Shown: one piece after another, positions 19,035-61,027 of the stretch | Layout: each line of letters opens with the position of its first letter | How positions within the stretch are numbered: the stretch's first letter is position 1 | Source: Bradyrhizobium sp. B124 | Lineage (GTDB): Bacteria; Pseudomonadota; Alphaproteobacteria; Rhizobiales; Xanthobacteraceae | DNA: 64,000 bases | Direction: 5' to 3' | Assembly (NCBI RefSeq): GCF_038967635.1 | Contig: NZ_CP152413.1 | Span: forward strand, 7,754,001-7,818,000 | The notes under the pieces: model-generated | The model's input: the letters and a program-made list of their open reading frames with translations, nothing else | Databases searched by the model: none | Told to the model about the DNA's origin: nothing | Made by a program: the position numbers and the translations under genes

Positions 19035-19781
19035 TCAAGACCTCTGCGTTGGCGCGTGGATTTCGTCTATTTTGTTCAGATGTACCGAGCATGCCAGCCG
19101 GTCAAATGGCGATTCGGAAATTCCAAATACCGTGAAGGCAGGCTCTATGGTCGTAAGTTCATAAAGCCGTCGCAGGGTGGGATATCCATTAGGAATCCCG
19201 AATGCCTGCTGTGCTTCTTCCGACGCTGGTGCGGCATCGATAAGCAGGCTTATCTTTCCATGGTTCGCGCCGCACCCGTGCAGTGCCTCGCAGGCAAGCT
19301 CGTCTCCGAATTCATCGAACACTCGGTCGAAGGAAAGTGGAAAGTACGAAGTATCGAATATTAATGGTATGCCATCGGCCGATATTACCTTTCGTAGGCA
19401 CAGCATTGTTCCAGTAGGTGCGCCAAACTCGCTAAACGACGGATGGCAGATCGCCTCTCTTGATACTGATCTCAACTGAATGCGCGGCTTGCACTCAACG
19501 TCCTGCTCATCCTTGGGTGATGTGAAGCCGAAATTGACGTCGCGAATGAACCTGTGCCTTTCCCGTATAAAGGTTCCAAGCCCAGAGACGGTACGCAGGA
19601 CGCCGGTGGATTGAAGGTCGCGCAGCGCACGTTTGATCGTTATTGCGCTTACGCCAAACTCCTCCGCCAATGCCGCGACCGATGGCAGAGGCTCCCCTGT
19701 CTTGTATTCGTTTTTCATCACTCGCCGCGCGATCTCTTGTCTGACCGTTTCATGCAGCAAACCGGTAACCGTCTTCTGCAT
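19035..19781 (-). CDS. GntR-family (HutC/UTRA) transcriptional regulator
   Basis: 248 residues. The N-terminal winged helix (residues ~8-75) shows GEPLPSVAALAEEFGVSAIT and IKRALRDLQSTGVLRTVSGL, classic for GntR. Residues ~90-235 are a UTRA ligand-binding domain of the HutC group (TMLCLRKVISADGIPLIFDT, LRRLYELTTIEPAFTVFG). Such regulators respond to small metabolites, often amino acids or sugars. It lies between the convergent P450 and the GNAT/PLP-enzyme/kinase operon on its own strand, with a ~440-base gap. It may control one or both; no operator was identified. Confidence 0.9.
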   Translation of the reverse strand: MQKTVTGLLHETVRQEIARRVMKNEYKTGEPLPSVAALAEEFGVSAITIKRALRDLQSTGVLRTVSGLGTFIRERHRFIRDVNFGFTSPKDEQDVECKPRIQLRSVSREAICHPSFSEFGAPTGTMLCLRKVISADGIPLIFDTSYFPLSFDRVFDEFGDELACEALHGCGANHGKISLLIDAAPASEEAQQAFGIPNGYPTLRRLYELTTIEPAFTVFGISESPFDRLACSVHLNKIDEIHAPTQRS

Positions 19782-20224: not shown

Positions 20225-20761
20225 CTAGCGCATTTCATATTCAAGAATGTTCTGGATGCCGACCGGGCCGAGGTAGGTAGCGCCCGTGTCACGAAAGCCA
20301 GACTTCAAATAAAGGTTCCTAGCTGTCCCATTGCGGGCATTCACTGCGAGCATGAGGTGATCGACGCATGGTCGGTTTGTCAGGATCCATTGAACCGCAA
20401 GTCTCATTGCTGCCATACCGTACCCATTGCTTTGGTATGCTGGGCCGACACGGAGGCCGTGCAAAGTAATCACGTCTGGTGGTGCCCACTCCGGTACAGC
20501 CGTCCTTTCACGCAGCACAAAAAAGCCGACGACCTTGTTGCCAGCAACGATCGAGAACGGGTGCTTTAGTTCGGGACAAGAGTTGCTTCGAAGTTCGGAG
20601 AACACTAACTCTATCGGATCTACAAACTGCTCCTGCTCGGGGCAAAGGGTTAAATGCGTGACTGTCGCCTCATCAAAGTGAGACAATGCTTTCAGGGCTG
20701 CAACGCAGGTGTCCTGGATAGCTTTGGTCGATTTACGGTGTGCCATGTCGATACGATCCAC
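20225..20761 (-). CDS. GNAT N-acetyltransferase
   Basis: 178 residues from GTG 20761; AAGG lies just before it, and an in-frame ATG at 20746 has no ribosome site. The acetyl-CoA motif A appears as LRVGPAYQSNGYGMAAM, followed by NARNGTARNLYLKSGFRDTG, the usual motif B region. It starts six bases after the stop of the PLP-enzyme gene, so the two are co-transcribed and probably translationally coupled. Acceptor specificity is unknown. In this operon it could acetylate the amino acid made by the kinase and PLP enzyme, either as a biosynthetic step or to protect the producer (inference). Confidence 0.85.
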   Translation of the reverse strand: MDRIDMAHRKSTKAIQDTCVAALKALSHFDEATVTHLTLCPEQEQFVDPIELVFSELRSNSCPELKHPFSIVAGNKVVGFFVLRERTAVPEWAPPDVITLHGLRVGPAYQSNGYGMAAMRLAVQWILTNRPCVDHLMLAVNARNGTARNLYLKSGFRDTGATYLGPVGIQNILEYEMR

Positions 20762-20767
20762 CGGGCC

Positions 20768-21841
20768 TTAGATCGCCGAACCGAGGAGAGACTGGACTAT
20801 GCGTCTTGGAGCATGGTTTGGAGCATGGTCGACCAGTCTGGAAAGCACTTCGTCAAGTGCCCGCCTGCCCCAGGTATAAGAGGACCAGCCCTTCAGGTTT
20901 TCGGTGGGGGCTGTGACAGCCAGTGGCTCTTCGCGTGCTGACGTCGGCCACTCAGGAATGGCGGACAGCCATTCTTCGTTATAGGCGGTTTCAGTGTAAC
21001 GATGGCCCTCATCCGGGAAGATGGCAACAACCCTCTTGCCCGGATTCAGTTTTGACCACCAGTTCGCAACCTTAAACGCAGCCCCGCTGGTGGGGCCCAT
21101 GAATAATCCATGGTCCCGGTGTAACCGATGAGTTGCGTGAACTGCCTCTGCCGCCGTCAGCCAATGCACCTCATCAAACTGTCTGTGGTCGAGATTGGAG
21201 GGTAGGGTGTCACCTCCCAGCCCGCTGAAGTATCGTCGGCCACTGGGCTGCCCAAACAGAACGGATCCTGGAGCATCAACGCCGATGGCATGCAGTTCGG
21301 GGAATAGTACCCTTAGGGCCTTGGACGTGCCGCACGTCGAACCGCCTGACCCGACGGCGCCAACCAGGCAGTCAATCTTTCCGATCCTGTCGATGAGCGT
21401 GGCTGCGAATTTCGCGTAAGCAAGCGGACAGTCCGGGTTGGTATGCTGTGAGGGCCAATAGCTGTCAGGTGTTTCTTTCAGGTATGCGGCAAGTCTGTCC
21501 AACCGCGCGCGCTGAAATCCGCCACTGGGTGCTGGATTTGGGGCGATGTCTAGGTGCACCCCAAGATCGCTGAGGCGCTTATGAAGGTGCCGATCGAGGG
21601 TGGGGTCGCTCACCAGAGTGAGTTTGTATCCATGCTGCACGGCAAGCATGGCCAGGGCCAACCCAAAATTGCCCGAAGAGGACGCGCAAATGCGCCCACC
21701 CGGTTTGAGAAAACCCTGCTCCGCGGCCCGCTCAAGGATGAAGCGGGCAGGGAGAAGCTTCAGAAGAAAGAAACTGGCAGCATACAGGCCATCTCTCAAC
21801 TGGATGATTCTCGGATTCTCGAAATCCTCGAGCTTGCGCAT
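20768..21841 (-). CDS. cysteine synthase/CBS-family PLP enzyme (beta-substitution), copy 1
   Basis: 357 residues from ATG 21841; a TTG at 21871 would overlap the kinase gene and is less likely. This is a fold-type II PLP enzyme of the CysK/SbnA group. The Schiff-base Lys is in FFLLKLLPAR: it lies 15 residues before GFLKPG, the same spacing as in CysK. The substrate loop is ASSSGNFGLAL, the phosphate-binding loop GAVGSGGSTCG and the C-terminal serine motif GPTSGAAFKVA. These enzymes replace a leaving group on O-acetyl- or O-phospho-serine/threonine. It sits between a threonine/serine-kinase-like GHMP gene and a GNAT in one operon, so O-phospho-Ser or O-phospho-Thr is a likely substrate. It differs clearly from the second copy at 23.4-24.5 kb. 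Confidence 0.85.
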   Translation of the reverse strand: MRKLEDFENPRIIQLRDGLYAASFFLLKLLPARFILERAAEQGFLKPGGRICASSSGNFGLALAMLAVQHGYKLTLVSDPTLDRHLHKRLSDLGVHLDIAPNPAPSGGFQRARLDRLAAYLKETPDSYWPSQHTNPDCPLAYAKFAATLIDRIGKIDCLVGAVGSGGSTCGTSKALRVLFPELHAIGVDAPGSVLFGQPSGRRYFSGLGGDTLPSNLDHRQFDEVHWLTAAEAVHATHRLHRDHGLFMGPTSGAAFKVANWWSKLNPGKRVVAIFPDEGHRYTETAYNEEWLSAIPEWPTSAREEPLAVTAPTENLKGWSSYTWGRRALDEVLSRLVDHAPNHAPRRIVQSLLGSAI

Positions 21842-21851
21842 GAGAGCTCGG

Positions 21852-22772
21852 CTAGCCAATCGTTGCTCCAAATGTCATTCGGTTCCGGAAGATCGATGGC
21901 TCGAAGCCTGACTTTCGCAGGTCATGCATCGCTAGATCCATGTGCTTGGTGGTTCTGGCGCTTGCTGGATCGAACAGCAAACCGACAACAGTCCCACTGT
22001 GCGCAACCTGCACGCCAACAGCGCCATGGCGAGTGCCGATTGCCTGGATTTCGTCCAGGCGCGGCTTTGGGAGGAATCTCTGGTTGATCAGCGCACTTGC
22101 GGTAGCAACGCGGCCAAGTAGTCCAAGGTCGGCGTCCCTGATCGCCCGACGCATAAGACTCCGGAGCGGACGAAAAAGCTCGACCTCGAAAGAATCGTAC
22201 CGTGCCGGCTCAAACACCAGCGTATCGACGCTTTGGTCGGGAGCTGCATCGACGCTGATGAAATCGAACGCTGGAAGCGAGGTTCGAAAAGACTCTATCA
22301 CGATCCCTTCACGATGTGCAAAGAGCACTGCCTGCTGCGAAAACAACGTGGAGTCGCATGCCGTCTCCGCTCTCACCGCGATTTCCATGACCCGGTCAGG
22401 CGTTGCTTCGACGTGCAGATAATCGAGAACGGCCGAGATGCTGGCCAGGACGTCGGCTGTCGATGAGCCCATGCCGCGCGCAACAGGGATATTGCTTGCT
22501 ATTGTCAGATGCCCGCCAACTCTGATCCTTGCGAACCTCGCAAGCGCGAGCTCGGCGGCGCGTTTCGACTTTTCACAACACACTGGAGTGACGGTCACCC
22601 CGTCTTCGTTGCTCGCCTTGAACGTTGCTGTAGATTTAAGATCGCGGCAGGGCAGCGATGTCAGACCACGGTGCAGACGAGCATTTTCGTCCTCGAATAT
22701 GCCCTGAAGCAGCTCTCCATGGTGACCGATAGCCTCACCGTAGCCTAGTGATGCAGGAACAGTTGATCTCAT
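21852..22772 (-). CDS. GHMP kinase, PduX-like (L-threonine/L-serine kinase)
   Basis: 306 residues from ATG 22772; a TTG-initiated extension to 22853 is possible, but neither has a strong ribosome site. The N-terminal motif GYGEAIGHHGELLQG matches PduX-type threonine kinases, and the ATP-binding GHMP motif is PVARGMGSSTADV (~95-107). The C-terminal part (HGAVGVQVAHSGTVVGLLFD) is the usual third GHMP motif region. PduX phosphorylates L-threonine for cobalamin synthesis, but no cobalamin gene is present here. The next gene, ten bases downstream, is a cysteine-synthase-like PLP enzyme, so the phosphorylated amino acid probably feeds a beta-replacement reaction. It is the first gene behind the sigma-54-like promoter at 22.9 kb. 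Confidence 0.85.
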   Translation of the reverse strand: MRSTVPASLGYGEAIGHHGELLQGIFEDENARLHRGLTSLPCRDLKSTATFKASNEDGVTVTPVCCEKSKRAAELALARFARIRVGGHLTIASNIPVARGMGSSTADVLASISAVLDYLHVEATPDRVMEIAVRAETACDSTLFSQQAVLFAHREGIVIESFRTSLPAFDFISVDAAPDQSVDTLVFEPARYDSFEVELFRPLRSLMRRAIRDADLGLLGRVATASALINQRFLPKPRLDEIQAIGTRHGAVGVQVAHSGTVVGLLFDPASARTTKHMDLAMHDLRKSGFEPSIFRNRMTFGATIG

Positions 22773-22890
22773 GGATCCGAGCGAAAGTTGAGTGTACAGC
22801 CGATGATCAAGATTCGGTGCCTGAGTTGATTGCGGGTTGTTCGAGATTGGCAAGTTGCGGATGCGCCGTTGCGACGCCTTGCGGCCACAA

Positions 22891-22907
22891 CTTCAAAAAT
22901 CGTGCCA
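22891..22907 (-). promoter_or_regulatory. sigma-54 (RpoN)-like -24/-12 promoter of the kinase operon
   Basis: On the minus strand the sequence reads TTGGCACGATTTTTGAAG. The -24 part TGGCACG is a perfect match and is followed, after four bases, by TTGAA where the consensus is TTGCA. The GG to GN spacing of ten bases is correct. It lies about 120 bases before ATG 22772 (38 before the alternative TTG). The one departure is A for C at -12. Support comes from a near-identical element before the second PLP-enzyme gene and a NifA-type site ~97 bases upstream. Confidence 0.6.
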
Positions 22908-22993
22908 ATGTGGAGGAAGGATCTTGGAACTGGCCGCTGAAAGCTTACCAACAGCTTAGATGGGCAGCCCTTAAAAGAGCGTCCGAGCACGAT

Positions 22994-23009
22994 TGTGCTG
23001 AACACGACA
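22994..23009. promoter_or_regulatory. candidate NifA upstream activator sequence
   Basis: TGTGCTGAACACGACA fits TGT-N10-ACA, the NifA binding consensus. It is centred about 97 bases upstream of the -24 element, the normal distance for NifA activation by looping. Such a site occurs by chance about once per 4 kb, so the value lies in its position. Confidence 0.55.
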
Positions 23010-23424
23010 GAACGGTCGTTCATTGAACATCCTGGCGGTCCTTCACGCTCATTCATGTCGCTATTCCTGGAATGAGGATATCCCGATCGACGGAGATACC
23101 AGATGGGTTTTGGAGGTCCGGAGGCGGCGCATGACCATTTCCAACGGCGAGCGCACGAGCTTGCAGACTGGCCTCCGAGCAACGAACGTGCTGGCGCGCG
23201 AACGTGGATTGCGCAACGCCGTGGCGAGGAGGGCCCTGTGGGCCTATGCGACGGGAGGATGATCCGATGAGCCATGGCAAATCGCATTGGTGAGGTCGAC
23301 GCGGCTTGGTAACCGACCAGGGAGACGCCGCAGCAATCAGTTCGGATGATCCATCGTGTTGCCTTGAAACCTCGCGGTGGCTAGTTCACGCACCGAACAC
23401 CGAGATAGTCAGGTAGAAAGGGCG
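23010..23424. other. intergenic between kinase control region and second PLP-enzyme gene
   Basis: Only short shadow-like frames are present, and nothing is recognised. The second PLP-enzyme gene ends here on the minus strand; no terminator with a T-run was seen. Confidence 0.4.
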
Positions 23425-24519
23425 TTACGGATTATACCCAGCAGGTCGGGGCGCCGGATCGACCCCGGCGACATCCCGGTATTTGCGTCGGCCCCACATG
23501 AATCGGCACCATCCTTCCGATACCTCCTGTAGTGAAGCGATGTCTCTTGGCCCTGCCCAATCACGACTAAGGTCCTCGTTCCAGTTGTTCAACCATCCAG
23601 GGTTAAACATTGTTTCCACATAACGGACGCCGTGGTCCGGTAGAATAGTCAGAACGGTACGCGAGGGGTCCTGAGCTGCAAACCACTCCGCAACCGTAAG
23701 AGCGGCACCACTCGACGGTCCGACAAGCATTCCGCTACGTCGATGAAAATCGTGTACCTTTTGCACCATCTTCGGCACTGGGACCCAGTGGACCTCGTCG
23801 CAACGTTCAAAATCTACGTTGCCCATGGGAATTCCGGCTCCCATTGCCAGAATTTGCTCGAACGTTTCCCTGCACATCTTGCTGATCCGCCGAGCTTGGG
23901 CACCAAAAATAACGCTTCTATTGTGATCGACAGCGACGACCTTCAAATCGGGATTCGCGTGTTGCAAGACTGACGCAACTCCAAACAGGGATCCACCGCT
24001 GCCCACCGTACCAACGATCACATCAATTTTTGGCTGTGTCAGCAGAACACGCTCGGCGATCGGCCTGTAAGAAAAAGAGTTCAGATAATTTGTGTACTGT
24101 TGTGGCCAAAAGCTCTTGGGAATCGATGAGCGCAACCCGGCCAGCACCTCAAGGCGGGCTTGCTGGATTCCGCCTTCGCAGTTCTTGCTGGCGTGAACTG
24201 TATGTAGGACTGCGCCCAGATTCTCTAGGCGCCAGCGGACCACGTCAGATGTTGGACCGGTAACCAGCGTGAGGCGGAGGTCATATAAAGAGCACAGGAT
24301 AGCCAGCGCCAAGGCAAACGTGCCAGAACTGCTTTCAATCACATGTCCGTCAGCCCGCAGTCGTCCAGTTGCCAGTGCGATATCAAGTATACATTTCGCC
24401 GGCGTGAACTTCATAAGATCGAATTTCGCGGCAATCAAATTGTGCGTGACTTGTACGAACGTTGGGAAGGAAAGCATTTCGACAACATCGGCGGTGAACG
24501 GCTTTGTAGGTGCATTCAT
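23425..24519 (-). CDS. cysteine synthase/CBS-family PLP enzyme, divergent copy 2
   Basis: 364 residues from ATG 24519, with AGGA upstream at loose spacing; the frame extends to 24555. It has the same fold-type II family and layout as the enzyme at 20.8-21.8 kb: Lys in KFDLMKFTPAK, phosphate loop GTVGSGGSLFG and C-terminal GPSSGAALTVAEW. The substrate loop is ESSSGTFALAL, so the Asn normally found in SGNTG is replaced by Thr, which may change substrate or reaction. PEHGVRY-like DHGVRYVETMFNPGWL corresponds to DEGHRYTETAYNEEWL in copy 1, showing common ancestry. It is not in the same operon but has its own copy of the sigma-54-like element, so both are probably expressed together and may act in sequence. 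Confidence 0.8.
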   Translation of the reverse strand: MNAPTKPFTADVVEMLSFPTFVQVTHNLIAAKFDLMKFTPAKCILDIALATGRLRADGHVIESSSGTFALALAILCSLYDLRLTLVTGPTSDVVRWRLENLGAVLHTVHASKNCEGGIQQARLEVLAGLRSSIPKSFWPQQYTNYLNSFSYRPIAERVLLTQPKIDVIVGTVGSGGSLFGVASVLQHANPDLKVVAVDHNRSVIFGAQARRISKMCRETFEQILAMGAGIPMGNVDFERCDEVHWVPVPKMVQKVHDFHRRSGMLVGPSSGAALTVAEWFAAQDPSRTVLTILPDHGVRYVETMFNPGWLNNWNEDLSRDWAGPRDIASLQEVSEGWCRFMWGRRKYRDVAGVDPAPRPAGYNP

Positions 24520-24740
24520 GCTGCGATTGTTCCTGAGTGTCGGACGAGTGGCCAACGGCTAGGCGCCGTTTGGCGTCTCATCCTGGGCGGTGCTTACGGT
24601 GCTTTAGTTGCGGAGTAAGAAAGCCGGCGCGAAACGCGAATGCGCGTCGTAGATGTGACATTATGCTCGTCTTGCTTCCCTCAATAGGTCGGGTCTCGCG
24701 AAGCGATAGTGATGACCATCTATGGCGGCCAGGCAAAAGA

Positions 24741-24756
24741 TTCAAAAATCGTACCA
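24741..24756 (-). promoter_or_regulatory. sigma-54-like element upstream of second PLP enzyme
   Basis: On the minus strand it reads TTGGTACGATTTTTGAAT, matching the element before the kinase operon at all but three of 18 positions. -24 is TGGTACG (C to T), -12 is TTGAA, with correct spacing. It lies about 220 bases before ATG 24519. No perfect TGT-N10-ACA was found upstream; only TGT-N10-GCA at 24785-24800, too close to be convincing. Confidence 0.5.
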
Positions 24757-26218
24757 ATTTGGATGAGGAGACGAGAATTGCCGATGTTGCTTCAGCTGCA
24801 TCTCCGAGCGATGTCGGGTCGTGGTGGGTGCTATCGCGGGCGCGGGATTGGATTGGCGAGCTGTGAAGTAATGGGCGAGCCATGGTCCGATGTTGGCGCC
24901 TGAGCGTCGCTGCATCCGCAGTGCAGCGGAAAATTGCCGGTCTTAACGTCTATCGGCCAAGGTTCGGTATGGTTCGAGCGGCCAATATGCGGGTAGGTTT
25001 CGACGCGATCCGGCAAATGTCCCGTCCAGGCCACACGTCGCGAACATCGCCAGGCGGACTTGAAGCAGGAATGGCGGCAGGCTGCGGTCCGCAATGAGCT
25101 GTTGTAGTCGCTCAGCCGATACAGAGCTACGCGGGCACGCGAGGGCGATTGCAGCTAGTGCCGTTCGCGGCCAGAGTTCTCGCCCTCTTCGAGCTTGATA
25201 ACAACTGGTTGCGGAAATTGCCGGAATCCCGTCATCGCAACCGATCGAGGATGGGCGTCTGGCTTGCACATTCGAACGTCTTGTGAATCTGCAGCGCTGG
25301 GCCGCAGGGCCCGTGAGCTTCAGAGAGAGCTTATGATTGGCAGCTTGTGGGTTGTCAGCCGCCAAAGCTAGTAGTTGATCCAGCGTGCCGCGGCATGCGA
25401 CCTCTCGGGTAAGGAGGGTTGGCCGGTCATCGACAAAGCGCTGGTTAGCTCAGTGTTCACTCGCAAAAAGAAGTGCAGCATGCGGCATCGATTGCAATCT
25501 GTTGACGCCGCCTGGTGTCGGTCGATGTGCTGGCTGATGGCGTGGAGAGATGTTGTGTTGCTCTGCCTCGGCATCCTTGTTCTTGCTGAGGTGATGGACC
25601 GTCTCGCTGACGTGCATCGCGGTCGTGCCCACGCGATGATCGAGGCCGCCCGCTCACATGTTGAGCTAGGAGGCTGGCTTCGACAAGTAAGCGCTTCGCC
25701 AACTGAACGCAGTCGAGGTAGTGGTCTGACAAGCGAGAGTTGGCATGCTGGGCAATGACGAAATGAAGCGCGGCCTCTCGCTTGTCGGGACAGGCCTCCA
25801 CGTCAGGGCTCCGCGATCTGAGCCCGCTGGTGATCGGGGCTATATTGTCGACGATAATGCTCGCAGCGCGTGCCGGCCTACGGCATCTCGTTGCGTATTT
25901 ATCGTCGGTTACTCATACGCAACGGAACGCGGTCACGCGGACAGCGCTCGTCTAATTGGAAGCAGTGAGTGCAAGCATATCAGGCTGCTGTTGGATGGTT
26001 CCATCAAGAACGCAGAACATCGATCTGGCAACTCCTGTGCGCGGGGTGGCGCCGAGCGATTTGGGAACGGAGGCCTGCGCGAGATAGGGAGATCGATGAG
26101 CTGGTCTTGATCGCTAAGAGCCCCTTGGGAATGGTGCGAACTCGAGGGGATCATCGGCGGTGACGTGCTGACAGGATCGTTCGTACGAGTGCATCTGCAG
26201 GTCAGGAGCGATGGCGTA
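24757..26218. other. 1.46-kb stretch without a supported gene
   Basis: Several open frames occur on both strands (for example 25375-25758 plus and 25933-26274 minus), but none shows a family motif, a good ribosome site or coding-like composition. Part may be decayed coding DNA. Confidence 0.4.
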
Positions 26219-26242: not shown

Positions 26243-26295
26243 TGCGAGTTGCCGCGGCCATTGCACTCTAACAATCAATGGCTGTGGAGACAAAG

Positions 26296-27078
26296 ATGCA
26301 AGGTGTTAAGAGACCGTCTTTTGGAAGCTTTTCCGAAATTGCAGAGTTTTATCCTGCGTTCCCACCCTACTCACGGCGGCTGCTTCAGGTCCTTGTCGAC
26401 CAGGTCAAGCACCTAACCGGGAGCCCGGTGTTCGGTGATATCGGCGCAGGTACGGGCGCAATCGCCTATACGTTAGCTGACATGGGTCTTGCCGGCTACG
26501 CGATCGAACCCGAGAGTCAAATGGTTGCAGTGGGGCAGAGGCGCAGCCCAACGTATCCTGCCATATCCTGGATTAATGCGCCGGGAGAAAACACCACCCT
26601 TGCCGACGAGTCGCTAGATTGGGTTTGCTACAGCCTGTCATTCCATTTGACGAACGCGGCGGAAGCACTTCGGGAAAGCATGCGAATCCTACGGCCTCGC
26701 GGTTTCTTCACAATAACGCACGTCCTCGCGGATCTTGAGACTGATCCCTTTCAGCTCGAAATCGAAAATCTTATACGCGACATGGCACCGGCTCTACGAC
26801 GGTCGCGGACCGCCCTCATCGGCCAGATGGGCACCTACGAGGCGCTCCTCAACCAGTATCCTGGCCTCGGGAACTGTATTTTTCTCGCGACCAGCCAAGC
26901 GATACCGATGAGCGAGGAGCGGTATGTCAACTACTGGCGTGGGCGGCATGATATTCCCAGTCAGGTCTCCTCGGAATTGTGGAATTCCATACTGCAAATG
27001 ATCGGGGAGACCTTCCGAAGGCGGCAGCCGGTCAACCTGAGATTCCGCTCTGCAGCTTGGCATGCGCAAAGGGTGTGA
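26296..27078 (+). CDS. class I SAM-dependent methyltransferase
   Basis: 260 residues from ATG 26296, preceded by GGAGA at five bases; an upstream ATG at 26278 has no ribosome site. Motif I is FGDIGAGTGAIAYTLADMGL, the acidic end of strand 2 is YAIEPESQM, and the later motif LDWVCYSLSFHLTNAAEALR plus RILRPRGFFTI are typical of UbiE/COQ5-like enzymes. It should move a methyl group from SAM to a small molecule. It lies about 200 bases before an LLM flavin monooxygenase on the same strand and may be co-transcribed. The substrate is unknown. Confidence 0.88.
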   Translation: MQGVKRPSFGSFSEIAEFYPAFPPYSRRLLQVLVDQVKHLTGSPVFGDIGAGTGAIAYTLADMGLAGYAIEPESQMVAVGQRRSPTYPAISWINAPGENTTLADESLDWVCYSLSFHLTNAAEALRESMRILRPRGFFTITHVLADLETDPFQLEIENLIRDMAPALRRSRTALIGQMGTYEALLNQYPGLGNCIFLATSQAIPMSEERYVNYWRGRHDIPSQVSSELWNSILQMIGETFRRRQPVNLRFRSAAWHAQRV

Positions 27079-27274
27079 TGTGCTCGCCATGTCTCAAGAT
27101 GATCAAGAAGGCTGAGCCAGCGGTGGTTCGCCACTGTGACTTCGCTCGAAATGGACGAGGCAGAGCCGGCAGCCGTTGCGGCATAGCAAGGGTGATGCTG
27201 GCTGGTAGGGCAACGTGCAGGACCTGCCAGCTGAGCACGGTTCGCAAGGATGTCAAATTCAGCAGGAGGACAGT

Positions 27275-28657
27275 ATGGGACGCAATGGTGAAATGAAGCT
27301 GGGGGTGTACCTCGCACAAGCGGGAGTTCACGAAGGAGCGTGGCGCGATCCGAGCGTGCCGGCAAACGGTGGCGTCGATATCGGTTATTATGCTGATCTG
27401 GCAACTCTCGCCGAAAGCGCAGCATTGCATTTCGTATTCCTCCCCGATAGCCCAAGCGTCTTGGAACGGGATGAGGCCACGATCGCTCGGTCGAGCCGAA
27501 ACGATGCGTTCGAGCCGATCACGCTGTTGTCGGCACTCTCGATGAAAACAGACAGGATCGGTCTCATCGGGACAGCTACAACGACCTACAATCAGCCCTA
27601 TCATCTTGCGCGCTTGTTCGCCTCGCTCGACCACCTCTCGCGTGGACGCGCGGGCTGGAACATTGTTACGTCGGGGTACAAGTTCGAAGCACAGAATTTC
27701 GGTGAAAGCGAACTTCCGGATCATGACACGCGCTATGCTCGAGCCAAGGAATTCGTGCAAGTTGTCACGGGCCTTTGGGACACATGGGAAGATGACGCTT
27801 TCGTCCGCGACAAGCAAAGTGGTATTTTCGTAGACACCAAGAAGCTGCATTTGCTTAACCACCGAGGGGAGCACTTGTCAGTTCGCGGCCCCCTTAATAT
27901 TGCAAGGCCGCCGCAAGGATATCCCGTATTGGTTCAAGCTGGCGCATCTGATACCGGAACAGCATTCGCCGCCAAATTCGGCGAGATCGTGTTCGGCGCC
28001 GCCCCCTACGTAGAGGATGGAAAACGACAGTATGCAACCCTCAAAGAGAAAGCGCGCGCATTCGGGCGCGAGGACGATCAGGTGCAAGTCATGCCTGGCA
28101 TTGTACCGGTCGTTGGGAGGACAAAGCAGGAGGCCTCCGACAAGCTTGAAAGGCTGCACTCAGCTGTGCACATCGACGTTCTGACCGGACTAGCCGATCG
28201 GTTACTGGGCTTTGTCACCGAGCTGCGTTCAACGGACCTCGACTCGCTGGTTCCCGAGACGCTACCGCAGACAAATTTCATCCAGAGCCGTCAAAAGCTG
28301 CTCCTCGAGATGGCCGCTCGCGAGAAATTCAGCTGGAGACAACTGATCCGCTATATATCGGATAGCAAAGGCCAGCTCTTGGTTGTTGGTACGCCGGACG
28401 AAATTGCAGACGTCATGGTGGATAGGTTTGATCAACGCGCGGCCGATGGATTTAACATTATACCGGAAACCTTTCCCGGCGGACTGAAGGATTTTGTTGA
28501 GCTCGTCGTGCCCGAGTTGCGTCGACGAGGCAAATTCAGATCCAAATACTCCGGACAAACACTAAGAGACAACCTGGGCCTCAAGCGGCCGGTTAATCGG
28601 TTCACGAGCGCAGGTGTAAGCGACGTCCGTGCAGAAGTGCCGCAGCCCTCGCACTAA
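27275..28657 (+). CDS. LLM-class flavin monooxygenase, NtaA/SnaA/DszA group
   Basis: 460 residues from ATG 27275, with AGGAGGA five bases upstream. The N-terminus MKLGVYLAQAGVHEGAWRDP and the segment LDHLSRGRAGWNIVTSGY are hallmarks of the nitrilotriacetate/pristinamycin/dibenzothiophene-sulfone monooxygenase group. Further markers are YYADLATLAES and FNIIPETFPGG near the C-terminus. These enzymes use FMNH2 from a separate reductase to oxygenate C-N or C-S bonds or to oxidise N-containing rings. No flavin reductase is adjacent, though the nitroreductase-type flavoprotein at 29 kb is close. It follows the methyltransferase on the same strand. Confidence 0.9.
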   Translation: MGRNGEMKLGVYLAQAGVHEGAWRDPSVPANGGVDIGYYADLATLAESAALHFVFLPDSPSVLERDEATIARSSRNDAFEPITLLSALSMKTDRIGLIGTATTTYNQPYHLARLFASLDHLSRGRAGWNIVTSGYKFEAQNFGESELPDHDTRYARAKEFVQVVTGLWDTWEDDAFVRDKQSGIFVDTKKLHLLNHRGEHLSVRGPLNIARPPQGYPVLVQAGASDTGTAFAAKFGEIVFGAAPYVEDGKRQYATLKEKARAFGREDDQVQVMPGIVPVVGRTKQEASDKLERLHSAVHIDVLTGLADRLLGFVTELRSTDLDSLVPETLPQTNFIQSRQKLLLEMAAREKFSWRQLIRYISDSKGQLLVVGTPDEIADVMVDRFDQRAADGFNIIPETFPGGLKDFVELVVPELRRRGKFRSKYSGQTLRDNLGLKRPVNRFTSAGVSDVRAEVPQPSH

Positions 28658-45049: not shown

Positions 45050-46303
45050 TCACCTCAAAGGGTAGGGCTTCCCGGTCGTTTCTGCCACTCTTTCCAAGAT
45101 GCAATTGCATAGTCGCTCTATGTCGCGGGCCGCGTGCTCGGCTGTAATCCATACCCAAACTCCCGCTTTCCGCTGCCCGACCGTTGGTAAGAACGTCCCC
45201 AAGGTATAGAAACCGCCGTCAAGAAGCCCTCTTGCGATTGCGATCGCATTGGCCTCCGATCCGACGGCGATCGTTCTGATCGGCAATGAATTGCCTTGCC
45301 CAACGGTTGCGACACGACGGTCAAAGAGCTCGATGCGTTGCGCCAGTCGCGCTTGCCGCTGCCCGAGTTCTGCCGAGCGGTGAATCTTGCACGACCCAAG
45401 CGCCGCACCGATCGCCGCTAGAGTGGGTGCCGCCGAGCAGACACCGGGAATGGAGTAACGTCGAAACAGCGACTCGTGGTCGGCGGTTCCAAACATCAAT
45501 ATTCCGCCCGATGCACCGAAGCCCTTGGCGAGCGAGGCTGCTATGATCGTCCGTTCACTGAGCTCTTGCGGAAAATGAGAGCGCGCGAACCCTTCGCCAT
45601 GGCATCCGAAGATCGATAAGCCGTGAGTATCATCAATATAGAGAAAGAGCCCATAACGTTCCTGGAGCTGACGGAGTTCCTTGATGGGCGAATACTCTCC
45701 CATAGAATAAACACCCTCGCATACATAGGCGACCACGAGATTTTCACGGCACAAGCGTTCGAGAGCGTCAATGTCGTTGTGGGCGATCGTTTTCACCCAC
45801 GTTTTATCTGCCATCGGCTGACAGGCGAGGGAGTTATGCGCAAAGCTATCAAACACTAAGACGGGCTTCCTTCCGCCGGTCAATTGGCCCGAAGCAAGGA
45901 TGGGCATCGCAGCTAGATTGGCGAGCATGACATCGGAAAAGGCGAGCACACGCGCGCAGAACATTTCGGAAAGACGTTCTTCAAGTTCTCGCAGCAAATC
46001 GAAATTGAGTTGGGCTCGGGCCCAGGACCAGTGCAATGACCGCTGCGCCTCGATCGCCTCGATCGCCCCAGCGACGATCACCGGATGATTGTCGAGGCCC
46101 AGATAAGAGCTTCCTATGAAGTCAATTACCTGTGGGCAACTGTCAAGCGGCCTGTCGCCCCAAGCACCCGTACGTCCACGTCCATAGCCAGCCATGACAC
46201 CGCCCATTCTAGCTGCATCAAAATACGGCGCGTTCATCCGAGCGTGTTCAATCGGGTGACCACCATCGAAGCGAGCGATCCGCTGTTGCATTTCATGCGC
46301 CAT
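45050..46303 (-). CDS. alpha-oxoamine synthase family PLP enzyme (AONS/KBL/SPT-like)
   Basis: 417 residues from ATG 46303, preceded by GAGG at good spacing. Family motifs: VIDFIGSSYLGLDNHPVIVA, then ALNSWSWAR-like LHWSWARAQLNFDL, YIDDTHGLSIFGCHGEG with the cofactor-binding Asp and His, and the PLP lysine in IIAASLAKGFGASGG (~residue 257). These enzymes condense an amino acid with an acyl-CoA with loss of CO2, giving an alpha-aminoketone (as in biotin, haem, threonine breakdown or sphingolipid synthesis). None of those pathways has neighbours here, and several motifs are divergent (SDVMLANLA in place of the usual SG-rich loop). It may belong to a specialised pathway. No acyl carrier protein is next to it. 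Confidence 0.85.
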   Translation of the reverse strand: MAHEMQQRIARFDGGHPIEHARMNAPYFDAARMGGVMAGYGRGRTGAWGDRPLDSCPQVIDFIGSSYLGLDNHPVIVAGAIEAIEAQRSLHWSWARAQLNFDLLRELEERLSEMFCARVLAFSDVMLANLAAMPILASGQLTGGRKPVLVFDSFAHNSLACQPMADKTWVKTIAHNDIDALERLCRENLVVAYVCEGVYSMGEYSPIKELRQLQERYGLFLYIDDTHGLSIFGCHGEGFARSHFPQELSERTIIAASLAKGFGASGGILMFGTADHESLFRRYSIPGVCSAAPTLAAIGAALGSCKIHRSAELGQRQARLAQRIELFDRRVATVGQGNSLPIRTIAVGSEANAIAIARGLLDGGFYTLGTFLPTVGQRKAGVWVWITAEHAARDIERLCNCILERVAETTGKPYPLR

Positions 46304-51239: not shown

Positions 51240-51943
51240 GCGGCCCGGTCCCGTCTACGGATAGCGAGGCGGCCGAAGACTTACGCCCGTTAGGCCGCAA
51301 CCGACCGCGATCGCAATGCGATCCGGAGAGCTACATGCCGACACTGGATAGCGTAACCGCGATCATTCACGCAGCTCCCGCTGCATTGCCGCCCTTGAAT
51401 TCTGATACGTGCCAATACCGCTTCTTCAAACGGCCAAAACAGTATCCCTCACCAGAGTAGGTAGTGTCTGGATCATCGTTGACGATGTACCAAGGACTAC
51501 TAACGCCCCGTATAGGCGCCGTGGCGCCGTATAGGCTATGACCCCGGCGCATCAACATAGGACAAGGTGATCCAATGGCAAGGGTAGTTAATCCGCGGCG
51601 TCATCTTATGCTTGTTCGCGTACAGGATAAAACGCCGTTATAAAAAAGGATCACCAAACTCTCGATGGATGTCTTGGTCATGCGAGCCTGTATCGACTGC
51701 GTTAGCGTCGTCCGACATAGATGCGAGTGAGGGCTGCGCGTTGCCACGCTCAAGCCCCCGCTCAAGGGGGCAATGATTAATGGCCGAGTCTCTGTCGCGC
51801 ACGCTGAACGGCAGGCAGTGGTCTGGGAAATCCACGTGGCTTGGCGCTAGCTCTGGTGATCGGCAACCTTCAGCTCTCAGATCGAGCGGTTGTGTTCGTT
51901 TTCAGGCCTGCCTACGTCCCACCAATTCCAAGGTTTTCCAAGG
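51240..51943. other. intergenic with possible small-protein remnant
   Basis: The minus-strand frame 51558-51367 (63 residues) contains SPWYIVNDDPDTTYSGEGYC, which reads like a short rhizobial protein. A diverged copy exists near 47 kb. Nothing else was recognised before the ligase gene. Confidence 0.3.
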
Positions 51944-53596
51944 ATGATCGCTACAAAATTGACAAAATCTGAACTGCAAGAGCGCGTCGCAAATGTGCTG
52001 CGCAGAACCGAGGCGCTGGAATCCGCATATGAGACGATCACGATCGGAGAACTGGTTTCAAGGCGGGCGAGAACGCACGGTTCAAAGACGGCAATTGACG
52101 TCTTCGACCGCGGCGAGCGCGCGACGTACTCCGAAATGGATCGATCGTCGAACAAATATGCACGTGCGCTGCAAGCATTCGGCGTACGCAAGGGTGATCA
52201 CATTGGGGTGATGCTGCCCAATCGCATCGAATTTCCGATCCTATGGTTCGCGATCGCCAAGCTCGGTGCGGTGATGATCCCGATCAACATGCGCTACACA
52301 CCGAGGGAGATCGAATACGTTCTGAGCGATACGCGGGCCGAGTTCGCCGTCGTCGACGAATCCGCGTGGTCAGCGTTTTCGGGGATGGACCCTTGGCCTC
52401 AAGACCTCGGCAAAGAGCGAGTAATCTCCGTTGGACAGCTCTCGGGTAGGACGGCCACTAATCTCAATCAATTGCTCAACGGTATCGACGGCTCTCCGGT
52501 AGAGGAGGATATCCAACCCGATGACCTGTTGAACATTCAATATACCTCGGGGACAACGGGCTTTCCGAAGGGATGCATGTTGACGCACGACTACTTTGGC
52601 GTGTTTTCGTTCCAGGGGGCGTGTTGGGACGAGCAGCCTTACCAGAGATATTTGTCCGTGCAGCCGTTCTTCTATATCGATCCGCCAATTCATCTTCTAA
52701 ATTCGTACCGGCAGGGCGGGACACTCTACCTCGGCCCGCAACTCAGTTCGACGCGCTTCCTTGGTTGGCTCAAGCAGCACCGCATCGAGTGGTGCCAGGT
52801 TCCCCAGCTAGTAGCACGCCAAGCGGAGGCGGCCAACGAAGACGGGGCAACATGCCTGAAGCAGACCCTTAATTGGGGTTGGAGTCCTGATACGGTGCGT
52901 CAATTTCGGAAGCGGTTTCGGGTGGGTACCCAGGAGGCTTACGGGATGACGGAGATCGGCTTCGGCACACGAATGGCGAACGATTTCGACGAGCTTGCCG
53001 ACTCGGGTTCGGTGGGGATTTGCGCACCTTTTCGGGCGCTGCGGCTGATGAACGAGGATGGCAGCCCCACGCGGGTTGGCGACGTCGGCGAGCTGTGGGT
53101 CAGGGGGCGCGGAATCTTCAAGGGATATTGGGACAAGCCGGACGCAAATGCCGCATTGTTTGAAGGCGACTGGTTCAAGACCGGTGATCTCATGCATCGC
53201 GATGAGTTCGGCTTTCATTGGCTGGTGGGGCGTACAAAGGACATGATCCGACGCTCAAGTGAGAACATTGCTGCACGCGAGGTGGAGACTGTCATCCGCG
53301 AAATTCCCGAGATTGTGGATGTGGCCGCTGTGCCCGTTCGCGATGTGAAGCGCGGCGAGGAGGTGAAGATTCACGTCGAATTGAGTGAAGGCGTCACGCC
53401 AGACAATCAGGTGGTTGAGCGCATTCTCGAGCATGCTCGTGCGCACCTTGCATCGTTCAAGGTGCCGCGTTACATTGCCTTTACTCCGTCGCTTCCTAGA
53501 ACCGCCACCAGCAATAAAGTGCTCAAACGTGAGCTGATGGCCGTGAGCGATCCGTTTGCCGGAACCTACGACACTGAGGAGAGGCGTTGGCGCTGA
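51944..53596 (+). CDS. AMP-binding acyl-CoA ligase (class I adenylate-forming enzyme)
   Basis: 550 residues from ATG 51944, with AAGG at ten bases; the frame opens earlier at 51890. Adenylation motifs are complete: P-loop IQYTSGTTGFPKGCMLTHD (~199), QEAYGMTEIGFGT (~330), DWFKTGDLMHRDEFGF (~408), GRTKDMIRRSSENIAAREVE, and the C-terminal lysine in TATSNKVLKREL. Sequence style is that of long- or medium-chain/aromatic acyl-CoA ligases such as CaiC and relatives. It converts a carboxylic acid, ATP and CoA to acyl-CoA. Partners could be the BKACE enzyme downstream and the MaoC hydratase at 42.5 kb (inference). Regulation is not visible. Confidence 0.9.
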   Translation: MIATKLTKSELQERVANVLRRTEALESAYETITIGELVSRRARTHGSKTAIDVFDRGERATYSEMDRSSNKYARALQAFGVRKGDHIGVMLPNRIEFPILWFAIAKLGAVMIPINMRYTPREIEYVLSDTRAEFAVVDESAWSAFSGMDPWPQDLGKERVISVGQLSGRTATNLNQLLNGIDGSPVEEDIQPDDLLNIQYTSGTTGFPKGCMLTHDYFGVFSFQGACWDEQPYQRYLSVQPFFYIDPPIHLLNSYRQGGTLYLGPQLSSTRFLGWLKQHRIEWCQVPQLVARQAEAANEDGATCLKQTLNWGWSPDTVRQFRKRFRVGTQEAYGMTEIGFGTRMANDFDELADSGSVGICAPFRALRLMNEDGSPTRVGDVGELWVRGRGIFKGYWDKPDANAALFEGDWFKTGDLMHRDEFGFHWLVGRTKDMIRRSSENIAAREVETVIREIPEIVDVAAVPVRDVKRGEEVKIHVELSEGVTPDNQVVERILEHARAHLASFKVPRYIAFTPSLPRTATSNKVLKRELMAVSDPFAGTYDTEERRWR

Positions 53597-54264
53597 AGTG
53601 ACTTTTCACACACCGTTAGCGTACACGCGCAGTTGCCGCTTCAATCCTTCAAGCAATCAAAGGGCCTGCACCGCCGGCGTTCCGCTATTTGGGAATCTCG
53701 AACCACCTGTTTATGATTCGCTTCTTTGGCTACGTCAGAGGCCAATACGGACGGGAAAATCTTGTTCTCGGAAGGTTCGAAAGCGTCTTGTGCCTGGTGC
53801 GTGCCTTAACGCGGGTTGGCGCTTATGCGATCCACTCAGCTGTCAGAAAACTCAACACATCTTCCCAAGCGAGAAATACGGCGACCTACGCACCAAGTTC
53901 GGCGGTGGCTACAATACGCTGAAGCCCAAATGACGTGTTGCTCCGCCGCGGCAGCCGTTGCCTGGAAGCTGGAGGCGCGAGTACTTCCCTGGCTGAGGAG
54001 AGAGTCTGAATGGGTATTTGCGCGCCGGACACAGGCACCTGCATAGGTGACGTGGTAGAGACGTGATCCATAACGCCAACGTGCGCTGGGGCAATCAGAT
54101 GACGCGATCGTGTTCGAACGTCTTCATTGGCCACATGCCATAGCCGTGCAATCAACACCATAGGGCGCGAGCCTAAACAAAATGGGGCGCTGACAGGAAA
54201 AATCGAGAAAAATACCGATCTGGCTTTGACCAGAGCAAGCTATCATCGAAAGGAGAGGCTGAGC
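53597..54264. other. intergenic, nothing recognised
   Basis: Only short overlapping frames. The BKACE gene's ribosome site lies at the right end. Confidence 0.4.
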
Positions 54265-55146
54265 ATGATTTCGGAGGTGTTCATCACCTGTGCAGTCACG
54301 GGGGGCGCGGCCGCCAGGCAGCCGAACGTGCCGATAACCCCAGAGCAGATCGCGGAGGCGGCGATCGAGGCAACGAGGGCGGGGGCGGCGGTCGTGCATA
54401 TCCATGTCCGGGATCCCAAAACCGGAAAAAGTTCGCGGGATCTGGCGCTTTTTCGGGAGGTGGTGCAGCGGATCCGCAAGTCGGACGTAAACCCAGTCCT
54501 CAACCTGACCGCCGGTACGGGCAGTGACCTCGTGTTGGGCGGGCCGGACTCTCCTCTGCCACCGGCGCCGCGGACGGATATGCCAGGCGCGATTGAGCGA
54601 CTGGTGCATGTGGAAGAGCTGCGCCCCGAGATTTGCACTGTGGATTGCGGTTCTATGAACTTCGGGCCTGGCGAATTCATCATGGCCAACACGCCGGGAA
54701 TGCTGAGCGCGTTAAGTAAGCGCGTGCAAGAGCTTGGAGTACGTCCTGAGCTCGAAGTGTTCGATACGGGTCATCTGGTCCAGGTGCACGATTTGATCAA
54801 AGAGGGGGTCGTGAACAATCCGCCGCTCATCCAGCTTTGCATGGGGATCCGCTATGGAGCCCCAGACGATCTCGGCACTCTGATGGCGCTGGTGCATCAA
54901 CTTCCGCCTGGCGCTATCTACTCGGCCTTCTCGATCGGTCGGAGGCAGCTCCCATACGTTGCACTGGCGCCCCTGGTTGGCGCTAATGTGCGGGTAGGAT
55001 TGGAGGACAACCTCTATCTCTCGTTCGGTAGGCTGGCGACCAACGCCGAGCTCGTGGAGAGGGCAGTCGAGATTCTTGAGCGGATCGGGGTGCGGGTGCT
55101 GAGTCCGGACGAGGTGCGCGAAAAGCTCGTGCTCAAAGTTTCCTGA
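54265..55146 (+). CDS. BKACE (DUF849) beta-keto acid cleavage enzyme
   Basis: 293 residues, ATG 54265 with AAGGAGAGG upstream. Zinc and substrate motifs are present: AVTGGAAARQPNVPITPEQI, AAVVHIHVRDPKTGKSSRD (HxH zinc ligands), NLTAGTGSD, CTVDCGSMNFG, PELEVFDTGHLVQ and NVRVGLEDNLYLSFG. BKACE enzymes, named for 3-keto-5-aminohexanoate cleavage in lysine fermentation, combine a beta-keto acid with acetyl-CoA to give acetoacetate and a new acyl-CoA. The family is broad and the real substrate is unknown. It lies after an acyl-CoA ligase on the same strand but 670 bases away, so co-transcription is uncertain. Confidence 0.92.
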   Translation: MISEVFITCAVTGGAAARQPNVPITPEQIAEAAIEATRAGAAVVHIHVRDPKTGKSSRDLALFREVVQRIRKSDVNPVLNLTAGTGSDLVLGGPDSPLPPAPRTDMPGAIERLVHVEELRPEICTVDCGSMNFGPGEFIMANTPGMLSALSKRVQELGVRPELEVFDTGHLVQVHDLIKEGVVNNPPLIQLCMGIRYGAPDDLGTLMALVHQLPPGAIYSAFSIGRRQLPYVALAPLVGANVRVGLEDNLYLSFGRLATNAELVERAVEILERIGVRVLSPDEVREKLVLKVS

Positions 55147-58252: not shown

Positions 58253-58298
58253 CCTTCCTGCCGATGTGAAAAATCTAGCAAAACGTTTCAACCCTCAT

Positions 58299-59552: not shown

Positions 59553-61027
59553 CGGATCTGAGCGGGGTGACGATTAAATCCGGTCGCATAGTGAGCAGCG
59601 TCAGTAGATGTGGGTTTGACGTCCGCCCGTGACGACCTCGCGGATTGGCCCTATTGTTGTTTGGCGGCGTAGAGGTGGAAGCTTGGAGTTGCCTGCATTG
59701 CTCGGCGCCAGCCAGCGATTGCGTCAGAATTCTGCGAATGTTAGCCAGTCTTGGCGCCGCTGGTTGATCGGGGAAGCCAGTCGCGCTGTTGTCGAGCTCA
59801 ATCGACGGCGTATCGCGACTGTTCGCGTTCTCCGCTTGGTCGCTTCGCTGGCGTGCTCACGAGGCCGATTCGCTATGGTATTACCCATGTGCGATTGCAA
59901 AGCTCTTGGCTAGTCTGACCAACACCAGCGCAATCGTCGCTCATCAAATCGCAGCTCCCAGTCTCGCAATCTGGCCTACATCCGTTTGGCATCAGCATAG
60001 CGGGGCCCGTGCGTGTGATGACCGTGAGCTCGGCCGCAAAGTAGGGCCCGGGTGTTAAGCGGGGTCTATTCGCGATACTGCTGGTATGCTGGTCGCGGCT
60101 GATGACCCGCAGTGGTCGCCGCGCGTCTTCGCCGAATATTTTTGGACGAATCGCCGGGCGGTGCCGACGCGATGAGTCAACTGACTGCAAAACGTCTCGA
60201 GGCAGGATTCTTCACTAATGCCCGGCAGAGCACGGTGACGGGAAGCCTGTGCAGGACTGAGAGCCGAGCGGGGTACCACCTCTGTTGCTTGTTGGTTAAC
60301 CAGCGTTTCCATCGACAATGTGTTAGCGTGAAGTTCAGCCTAGATGCCTGGGGATCTGAATGGTTGATCAGTGAAACGCTTCTCAATCTGAACGAAGCCT
60401 CAATATGATAAAGAGTTGAGTCGTTCTTCGCGAACGACGCCGCCAGAAATGCGCGGTACCTGTACGGCTCTCGGGGTTGAGCAAAAGAGCTGCTAATCGC
60501 CTCCCGATCCACGATCGGCTGACAACTTAAGTCAGCTATTAACCCATGGTTGCGGCTCTCGATTGCACTCAACTACGCGAAACACTCAAGGAACTCAGTG
60601 TCCCGAACTCGACGACGCGCACCTACACATCGGAAACGCAGACTTAGCGCTGGATCACAGAAGAACTACCAGCCTTAGTAGGTTCGTTGTTCGCGTTTCT
60701 TAGGTAAGTGAAGGGAACCATTCTGGGATACGTGCGTCAAGCAAATGTGGTCTGACAGGCAAGTTGCTGCAAGAGGCGAGAGAACGGCGATCAAACGGCA
60801 AGGCCACCATGATTGCCCCGTTGCAACAGGTCTTGATTGCCTAGCAACGAAAACTACGAGATGCATCGATCAAAGGCACAGCTTGCGTGCACAATGACGT
60901 AATCCGAGGCGATCTCAATCGAATCGTGAGCGTAATTGCGACGTCACACAGACGATCCCCCGATGACCATTACCGAACCTCAATCATTGCATCCTCATCC
61001 TCAATCACGCACGACAGGATCACGCCA
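59553..61027. other. 1.47-kb stretch without a supported gene
   Basis: Both strands have only short frames lacking domain features; it is probably decayed sequence. The promoter of the oxygenase gene should be near the right end. Confidence 0.4.

Follow-up and report, generated by a model that had tools for sequence, protein, structure and literature searches.

Several described systems resemble the genes considered here. The PduX and BluE enzymes are L-threonine kinases which serve the cobalamin side chain, and SbnA belongs to the 2,3-diaminopropionate pathway of staphyloferrin B. The 2,3-diaminobutyrate (Dab) cassettes occur in lipopeptide clusters of the friulimicin/gausemycin type, and in their chemistry ArgH removes fumarate from an aspartate adduct; rhizopines are handled by the mos/moc systems. 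Cysteine synthase and argininosuccinate lyase genes are mentioned for a Dab-containing peptide cluster (PMC12471526), and moc is mentioned in PMC3538637. The present analysis concerns a stretch of 64,000 nucleotides from Bradyrhizobium sp. B124 (the window, C1:7754001-7818000, inside a single-contig genome of 9.17 Mb), and within it a GHMP kinase, two SbnA-like enzymes dependent on pyridoxal phosphate (PLP1 and PLP2), a GNAT N-acetyltransferase and a GntR regulator. We are confident that this set of genes is conserved, constrained and nodulation-linked, with a NifA/sigma-54 promoter architecture. On balance, it probably encodes a bacteroid-specific pathway, under NifA and sigma-54 RNA polymerase, which would turn threonine into O-phospho-threonine, then into a beta-N-substituted product and finally into its N-acetyl form. 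An earlier reading of this DNA (the original prediction) had neither this regulation nor the association with nodulating bacteria.

The original prediction had placed a GHMP kinase, a CysK/SbnA-like PLP enzyme, a GNAT and a second, CysK-like PLP enzyme at this locus, and Pfam searches agree, with all four on the minus strand. The features are the following:

19035..19781, minus strand: GntR/UTRA-family regulator (PF00392 and PF07702 over cut-off)
20225..20761, minus strand: GNAT N-acetyltransferase (PF00583, 45.8 bits, over cut-off; 42-65% identity to the GNAT end of fused orthologs)
20768..20770, minus strand: in-frame TAA between PLP1 and GNAT
20768..21841, minus strand: PLP1, SbnA-like fold-type-II PLP enzyme of the PALP family, predicted to carry out beta-replacement on an O-phospho amino acid (TIGR03945, 211 bits; SbnA the best PDB sequence match)
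21852..22772, minus strand: PduX-type GHMP kinase, predicted to act on an amino acid, probably L-threonine (PF00288 and PF08544, the N and C domains, over cut-off)
22892..22908, minus strand: sigma-54-type promoter of the kinase operon, TTGGCACGATTTTTGAA, of nifH type with A at -12
22994..23009, minus strand: NifA upstream activator sequence, TGTCGTGTTCAGCACA (TGT-N10-ACA), lying 102 bp ahead of the -24 element of the kinase
23425..24519, minus strand: PLP2, second SbnA-like PLP enzyme (PALP; the listed open reading frame reaches 24555)
24741..24757, minus strand: the sigma-54-type element again, TTGGTACGATTTTTGAA, ahead of PLP2

The listed frame of the kinase extends to a TTG at 22853, and its probable start is the ATG at 22772, since the equivalent methionine is found in most of 30 aligned homologs (48-74% identity); in a Bradyrhizobium relative, G192, a stop codon stands immediately 5' of the equivalent ATG. 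Probable starts of PLP1 and PLP2 are 21841 and 24519, with database copies of 357 and 364 amino acids. The GHMP kinase domains required of a PduX L-threonine kinase are present, and some homologs are labelled 'propanediol utilization' (PduX) or 'threonine kinase' by their sources. The ratio of nonsynonymous to synonymous substitution (dN/dS) of the five genes is 0.15-0.30 against the Bradyrhizobium relative (PLP1 0.30, GNAT 0.28, kinase 0.17, PLP2 0.15, GntR 0.18, in stretches free of stops) and 0.10-0.30 against a Mesorhizobium relative; such low values indicate real genes rather than chance coding. On the same chromosome, nifH (C1:7428895) and nodC (C1:8072657), each with one copy over cut-off, flank the window on opposite sides, which therefore probably lies within a symbiosis region.

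Regulation by NifA and sigma-54 is well supported. The kinase and PLP2 each have a nifH-type sigma-54 promoter upstream, and the kinase has a NifA box in addition. Without mismatch, TTGGYACGATTTTTGAA occurs at exactly two places in the 9.17-Mb genome, upstream of the kinase and of PLP2, and with two mismatches at two further places; allowing up to two mismatches, the 16-mer has three matches in the window against 0.06 expected by chance. The promoter-like element which the original prediction had seen as common to the two genes is thereby confirmed. The kinase upstream region has the GG at -24 and the NifA box expected of the NifA/sigma-54 regulon, with A rather than the expected C at -12. The pattern TGT-N10-ACA is the one which we take to be the NifA box. 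It is printed as TGT-N10-AGA in PMC3538637. That paper describes A at -12 as a rarity (9 of 186 RpoN promoters in Rhizobiales), although nifH of M. loti, R. etli and R. leguminosarum typically carries it. In M. loti, the promoter of nifH, TTGGCACGAGTTTTGAA, is of this -12A type (PMC3538637, Table 1) and differs by one base from TTGGCACGATTTTTGAA; nifH of the present genome has a C-type element, TTGGCATGGCGGTTGCT. A -12A element together with a TGT-N10-ACA box is also found upstream of the kinase in loci L142 and L013, and in L046 the element has a variant form, GGCCCGATTTTTGA, likewise accompanied by a box. A sigma-54 element precedes PLP2 here and in L142.

Expression data for orthologs come from a published RNA-seq comparison of wild-type and nifA-mutant nodules of Paraburkholderia phymatum on bean (PMC8305402). 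In its Table 1, log2 fold changes in nifA nodules are -8.24 for the kinase (Bphy_7478), -6.85 for a fused PLP1-GNAT protein (Bphy_7479) and -4.44 for the GntR regulator (Bphy_7481), all on pBPHY02, with -7.40 for nifH (Bphy_7753) and -10.05 for nifD. The enzyme genes lose expression as strongly as the nif genes do, and the orthologs can be regarded with confidence as NifA-dependent in nodules. A second set, about 20 kb away, includes a MmgE/PrpD protein (Bphy_7496, -5.97), a PLP enzyme (Bphy_7498, -3.19), an M24 protein (Bphy_7500, -6.59) and ABC transporter genes; a DoeB-like gene, BPHY_RS37095, lies between 7498 and 7500 and has no entry in that table. The authors suggest that Bphy_7479 makes cysteine and Bphy_7498 threonine (PMC8305402). 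In a literature search that covered few subscription journals, Bphy_7478, 7479, 7498 and 7500 were named by this paper only, and no description of such a pathway in rhizobia was found among the titles and passages returned. Elsewhere on pBPHY02 (L145, 18316-21085), a NifA-dependent ectB-like transaminase gene is followed by a GNAT gene (Bphy_7266/7268) inside a hydrogenase region, ectC not being among the genes listed in that stretch.

The distribution of the genes was surveyed in kinase loci drawn from a plasmid collection, from a set of Bradyrhizobium genomes and from genome contigs, where 120 loci were confirmed and the best 80 used. In all, 102 kinase loci were grouped by their neighbours into classes set up only after the loci had been seen:

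class ia (n=14): kinase, then PLP1 with GNAT
class ib (n=7): kinase, PLP1, MFS, GNAT, PrpD
class ic (n=7): kinase, PLP1 and ATP-grasp, without ArgH
class ii (n=19): with ArgH
class iii (n=41): with threonine synthase, LuxI or transketolase
class iv (n=3): NTP transferase, CDP-alcohol phosphatidyltransferase, AsnB
other (n=11)

These counts exclude the short loci L032-L045; G192 and a further Bradyrhizobium genome, G144, were re-entered as L142 and L143, and L121 (with the kinase and the PLP1-GNAT gene rearranged) was assigned to the last group. L057 and L058 are near-identical; L056 is a duplicate of L015, and the pair was counted once, appearing as L056 in the nodC test. A PLP1-type match stands beside the kinase in 105 of 113 tabulated loci (L015 and L056 being one plasmid, and L016 and L029 partial). 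In a FastTree tree rooted on PLP2 and thinned to at most nine class-ii and eight class-iii rows, PLP1 of class ia and L121 forms one clade (support 0.94), joined by class ib (0.997), three ic rows (0.98), two further ic rows (0.67) and then class ii of Azospirillum (0.98); PLP1 of classes ia to ic is thereby nested with PLP1 from clusters of kinase, PLP1, ATP-grasp and ArgH. A NifA box no more than 400 bp from the start of the kinase is present in 6/14 loci of class ia, 2/7 of ib, 0/7 of ic, 0/18 of ii, 1/41 of iii, 0/3 of iv and 0/11 of the others; relatedness being ignored, class ia differs from classes ii, iii, iv and other taken together (1/73) with a Fisher p of 3.8e-5. Among 49 genomes tested (for 50 loci less L079), nodC was present in 6/6 of class ia, 5/6 of ib, 1/5 of ic, 0/5 of ii, 7/26 of iii and 1/1 of the others (ia against all other arrangements, 14/43: Fisher p 0.003, again ignoring relatedness). 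A GntR match above 60 bits is found downstream in 10 of the 14 class-ia loci and in none of any other class.

Across 195 Bradyrhizobium genomes, the kinase was found at E<=1e-20 in 14, which is too rare for a house-keeping gene; the original prediction, too, had held a house-keeping role to be unlikely, on the ground that it saw no cobalamin or cysteine-assimilation gene close by. A close kinase (at least 66% identity) occurs in three, namely the present genome (G000), G192 and G144, and PLP2 at 79% identity or more also in three, G000, G192 and G027. G144 has a fused PLP1-GNAT gene and no PLP2 within its fetched flanks, G027 has PLP2 without a close kinase, and PLP2 was not found within the fetched flanks of nine beta-rhizobial loci. 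Therefore, the kinase, PLP1 and GNAT form the unit, with PLP2 as an optional partner. The expected co-occurrence of the kinase with both PLP enzymes holds for PLP1 only; independent occurrence, which had been named as evidence against the original idea, was seen for PLP2 and not for kinase, PLP1 and GNAT in class-ia loci.

PLP1 and GNAT lie in the same frame, separated by one TAA and two codons. They form a single open frame in 11 of the 14 class-ia loci (L013, L014, L017, L018, L046-L049, L057, L058, L143), many database homologs carry both Pfam domains in one protein, and in L019 the two are annotated as overlapping pieces. The tight operon originally described is real in its genes, while the view of PLP1 and GNAT as separate genes needs revision. 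The fusion in relatives is good evidence, from gene structure, that PLP1 and GNAT would act in one pathway. In G192 the stop is at the identical point, and since it is common to two strains and both halves are constrained, the separation appears to be of long standing and not a sign of recent decay.

SbnA is the best match by model, sequence and structure, and is also the best structural match of PLP2. The lysine which we take to form the Schiff base in SbnA is kept as Lys38 of PLP1, in 96 of 96 PLP1-type proteins read there and in PLP2; the position of SbnA Arg132, presumably on the phosphate side, is R in 93 of 94 PLP1-type proteins and is kept in PLP2. The positions of Tyr152 and Ser185, varied in PDB entries 5d86/5d87, are not kept as a pair, being His/Gly in PLP1 of the window and Tyr/Gly in PLP2. 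The PLP2 loop SGTFA had been described as altered, a description that fails: T is found there in 87 of 95 PLP1-type proteins and in all 79 PLP2 relatives with a residue at this point, N in 5 of the 95, so that T is the family norm and the N of PLP1 the exception. In the four class-ia loci with PLP2, PLP1 has N in the loop (SGN) and H at the Tyr152 position, whereas all ten loci without PLP2 have T and Y. As the four loci are one clade and one event, this is suggestive, not proof, of a division of labour between the two enzymes. The close homolog P0250, whose contig is as long (6,805 bases) as one that bears PLP2 (P0126), combines N with Y, and some close homologs (P0250, P0243, P0244) carry Y or R at the second position. 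PLP2 relatives form a group apart from PLP1 in the tree; one of them (46% identical) adjoins a GHMP kinase (36% identical) on a 21-kb Tabrizicola plasmid, a neighbourhood which suggests that PLP2, too, may work with a phospho-amino acid.

In the proposed mechanism, the operon would be transcribed in bacteroids of nodulating Bradyrhizobium by NifA and sigma-54 RNA polymerase. The kinase would make O-phospho-L-threonine, or less probably phosphoserine, as its family and neighbours indicate; PLP1 would eliminate phosphate to give an enzyme-bound aminocrotonate and then add an amine nucleophile at C-beta, after which GNAT would acetylate the amine. The nucleophile is probably aspartate, leading to an opine-like N-substituted aspartate, or an equivalent leading to 2,3-diaminobutyrate. 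An aspartate adduct is favoured over free ammonia because ArgH follows PLP1 in class ii and because the MmgE/PrpD protein of the class-ib locus L022 has iminodisuccinate epimerase (2hp0), an enzyme acting on another N-substituted aspartate, as its best match among solved structures (E 3.5e-20). Class-ii neighbours are ArgH and ATP-grasp, with one locus inside a Streptomyces nonribosomal peptide synthetase (NRPS) cluster (L028), and by analogy PLP1 may there join aspartate to the phospho-amino acid, with ArgH removing fumarate. Where present, PLP2 would use this phospho-amino acid as well, to form another beta-substituted amino acid, either in addition to the first or in its place. We hold phospho-threonine-dependent beta-substitution followed by N-acetylation, as predicted from the protein families, with moderate confidence. 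The original route of kinase activation of Ser or Thr, beta-replacement and acetylation fits the position of PLP1 beside the kinase, the GNAT fusion and the conserved Lys and Arg, and loses its argument from the loop.

A number of observations weigh against this pathway or its proposed control. PLP1 and PLP2 score 211.4 and 172.6 bits with TIGR03945 (SbnA), below its curated cut-off of 349.95, and both have Gly in place of Ser185. No enzyme activity for these proteins was found in print. No ArgH match was found in the 64-kb window or the fetched flanks of class-ia loci, and the window therefore offers nothing that would release a diamine from such an adduct with aspartate. An exact NifA box was not found within 400 bp in 8 of the 14 class-ia loci, P. 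phymatum included, and the strict -12A motif is confined to 4 of the 14 (1/87 elsewhere). PLP2 has no TGT-N10-ACA box within 700 bp of its start, a box being found upstream of it in none of five loci (the window, L142, L013, L046 and L127), and no sigma-54 element was found ahead of it in L013, L046 and L127. The TAA, the dN/dS of 0.28-0.30 for PLP1 and GNAT, and the reduced length of the kinase (239 amino acids) and PLP1 (325) in Bradyrhizobium sp. USDA 3364 may indicate weakened use in Bradyrhizobium.

The TAA and the shortened USDA 3364 copies, with the presence of a close kinase in just 3 of the 195 genomes, would also fit a degenerating remnant, acquired by transfer, whose product is no longer made. 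We consider this quite improbable, as dN/dS between two strains is 0.15-0.18 for the kinase, PLP2 and GntR and 0.28-0.30 for PLP1 and GNAT, the compared stretches lack stops, both halves are conserved around a stop position common to two strains, and the promoters are conserved. A function in sulfur metabolism, with PLP1 and PLP2 as cysteine-, S-sulfocysteine- or cysteate-type synthases adding sulfide, thiosulfate or sulfite to the phospho-amino acid, is unlikely in view of the match to SbnA, the dedicated kinase and fused GNAT, the ArgH and ATP-grasp of class ii, and the lack of any cysteine-assimilation family over cut-off among 16 window proteins scanned with NCBIfam; a monooxygenase of the NtaA/DmoA family, some members of which oxidise sulfur compounds, is encoded some 2.7 kb away from PLP2.

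Proposals for the product have been weighed in the same way; it could act like a rhizopine, bind metal as a metallophore, or store nitrogen. An aminopolycarboxylate chelator (staphyloferrin-, EDDS- or staphylopine-like), with two PLP enzymes building a bis-substituted amine and metal supplied to nitrogenase-forming bacteroids, would agree with the service of SbnA to a siderophore (PDB titles), and in class ib (L022 tested) with the iminodisuccinate-epimerase-like protein and an MFS transporter weakly matching, below cut-off, an H+ antiporter model and EntS. This is nonetheless improbable: control is by NifA rather than metal, capping by GNAT would cost a donor amine, and the annotated plasmid loci, whose gene tables are incomplete and were not searched systematically, name neither a siderophore receptor nor a metal regulator alongside. 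An N-acetyl diamino acid accumulating in bacteroids as compatible solute or nitrogen store, by analogy with the ectoine pathway, is likewise held to be of low probability. DoeB-like genes lie within the fetched flanks of the kinase in 1/9 loci of class ia, 2/5 of ib, 5/5 of ic and 7/32 of iii (ii 0/14, iv 0/2, other 0/7), the P. phymatum protein best matches N-acetyl-2,4-diaminobutyrate deacetylase (238 bits; TIGR02994 288 bits, cut-off 402.7), and mass features named threonine, ectoine and 5-hydroxyectoine drop in rpoN nodules (PMC5979394, Table 2); against this, flow-injection mass spectrometry cannot separate isomers, the separate NifA-dependent ectB and GNAT pair on pBPHY02 can account for those features, and loss of nifA raises rather than lowers the osmotolerance of P. 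phymatum (PMC8305402).

The DoeB-like genes, together with the uptake/breakdown-like genes of P. phymatum, most of them dependent on NifA, also invite a rhizopine-like reading. A speculative form of it, which we regard as rather doubtful, is a nodule 'opine': an N-acetylated, threonine-derived, aspartate-linked amino acid made at the command of NifA by bacteroids of alpha- and beta-rhizobia, several of which would carry a matched uptake and breakdown set (amino-acid ABC importer, DoeB-like deacylase, M24 hydrolase, threonine-synthase-like PLP enzyme, iminodisuccinate-epimerase-like protein), the PLP1 active site having shifted (SGT to SGN, Tyr to His) in the PLP2-bearing lineage as two enzymes divided the work. 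The breakdown-like set of P. phymatum is itself largely NifA-dependent, and the second ectB and GNAT pair could be the real source instead.

Other genes of the window, and other kinase neighbourhoods, were also recorded. The most conserved neighbours against G192 are a methyltransferase and the NtaA/DmoA-type FMN monooxygenase (26278-28657, plus strand; 93% and 91% identity). An alpha-oxoamine-synthase-like protein (45050-46303, minus) matches the 'hypothetical protein' subfamily NF005697 over cut-off (412 bits) and BioF below it (130 bits). A methylaspartate ammonia-lyase (58266-59552, plus; TIGR01502, 511 bits, cut-off 286) adjoins an aldehyde dehydrogenase (56822-58252); upstream of them are an AMP-binding ligase (51890-53596) and a BKACE protein (54127-55146). 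The protein at 60887-61870 (plus) has a match, weak at 42 bits but over cut-off, to WelO5, a family of carrier-independent halogenases; hydroxylases are told from halogenases by the HxD rule, and an HDD motif, read by eye, suggests a hydroxylase rather than a halogenase. On plasmids of Mesorhizobium, Pelagibacterium and Sinorhizobium (L026, L030, L031), the GHMP kinase is accompanied by NTP transferase, CDP-alcohol phosphatidyltransferase and asparagine synthase, which may together form a lipid or nucleotide pathway of the phosphothreonine or phosphoserine type. In five loci on plasmids of Bosea, Mesorhizobium, Aminobacter and Paracoccus (L020, L021, L022, L024, L029), the kinase and PLP1 (partial in L029) lie near LuxR/LuxI-type genes, a neighbourhood recalling the opine/quorum coupling of Ti plasmids; L022 and L029 additionally have trb conjugation genes close by.

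The purpose of NifA-regulated genes without an assigned role is an open question in symbiosis, and here a compact enzyme set, conserved in alpha- and beta-rhizobia, belongs to families which predict a concrete small molecule. If the proposed pathway is correct, rhizobia make an uncharacterised compound inside nodules, which would also bear on the cysteine synthesis suggested in print for Bphy_7479-type enzymes. Compared with SbnA, the locus shares the fold, the active-site Lys, the Arg132 equivalent and the phospho-amino-acid logic, but its PLP enzymes fall below the family cut-off, have Gly at the Ser185 equivalent, and are accompanied by a kinase of their own and by a GNAT which relatives carry as a fusion. 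With PduX/BluE it has in common the GHMP family and homologs labelled as propanediol-utilization proteins, whereas its kinase adjoins PLP1 and is found in 14 of 195 Bradyrhizobium genomes. As in rhizopine systems, synthesis genes are symbiotically regulated and uptake/breakdown-like genes are close by in some relatives; unlike them, the chemistry is that of amino acids rather than inosamines, a DoeB-like query, run without a positive control, has no match in this genome, and the P. phymatum breakdown-like genes largely share the control by NifA. The Dab cassettes resemble the locus in the adjacency of the kinase and a PLP1-type enzyme, as in the Streptomyces NRPS locus, while class ia, with neither ArgH nor ATP-grasp alongside, is set apart by its GNAT fusion, its control by NifA and its setting in the nodule.

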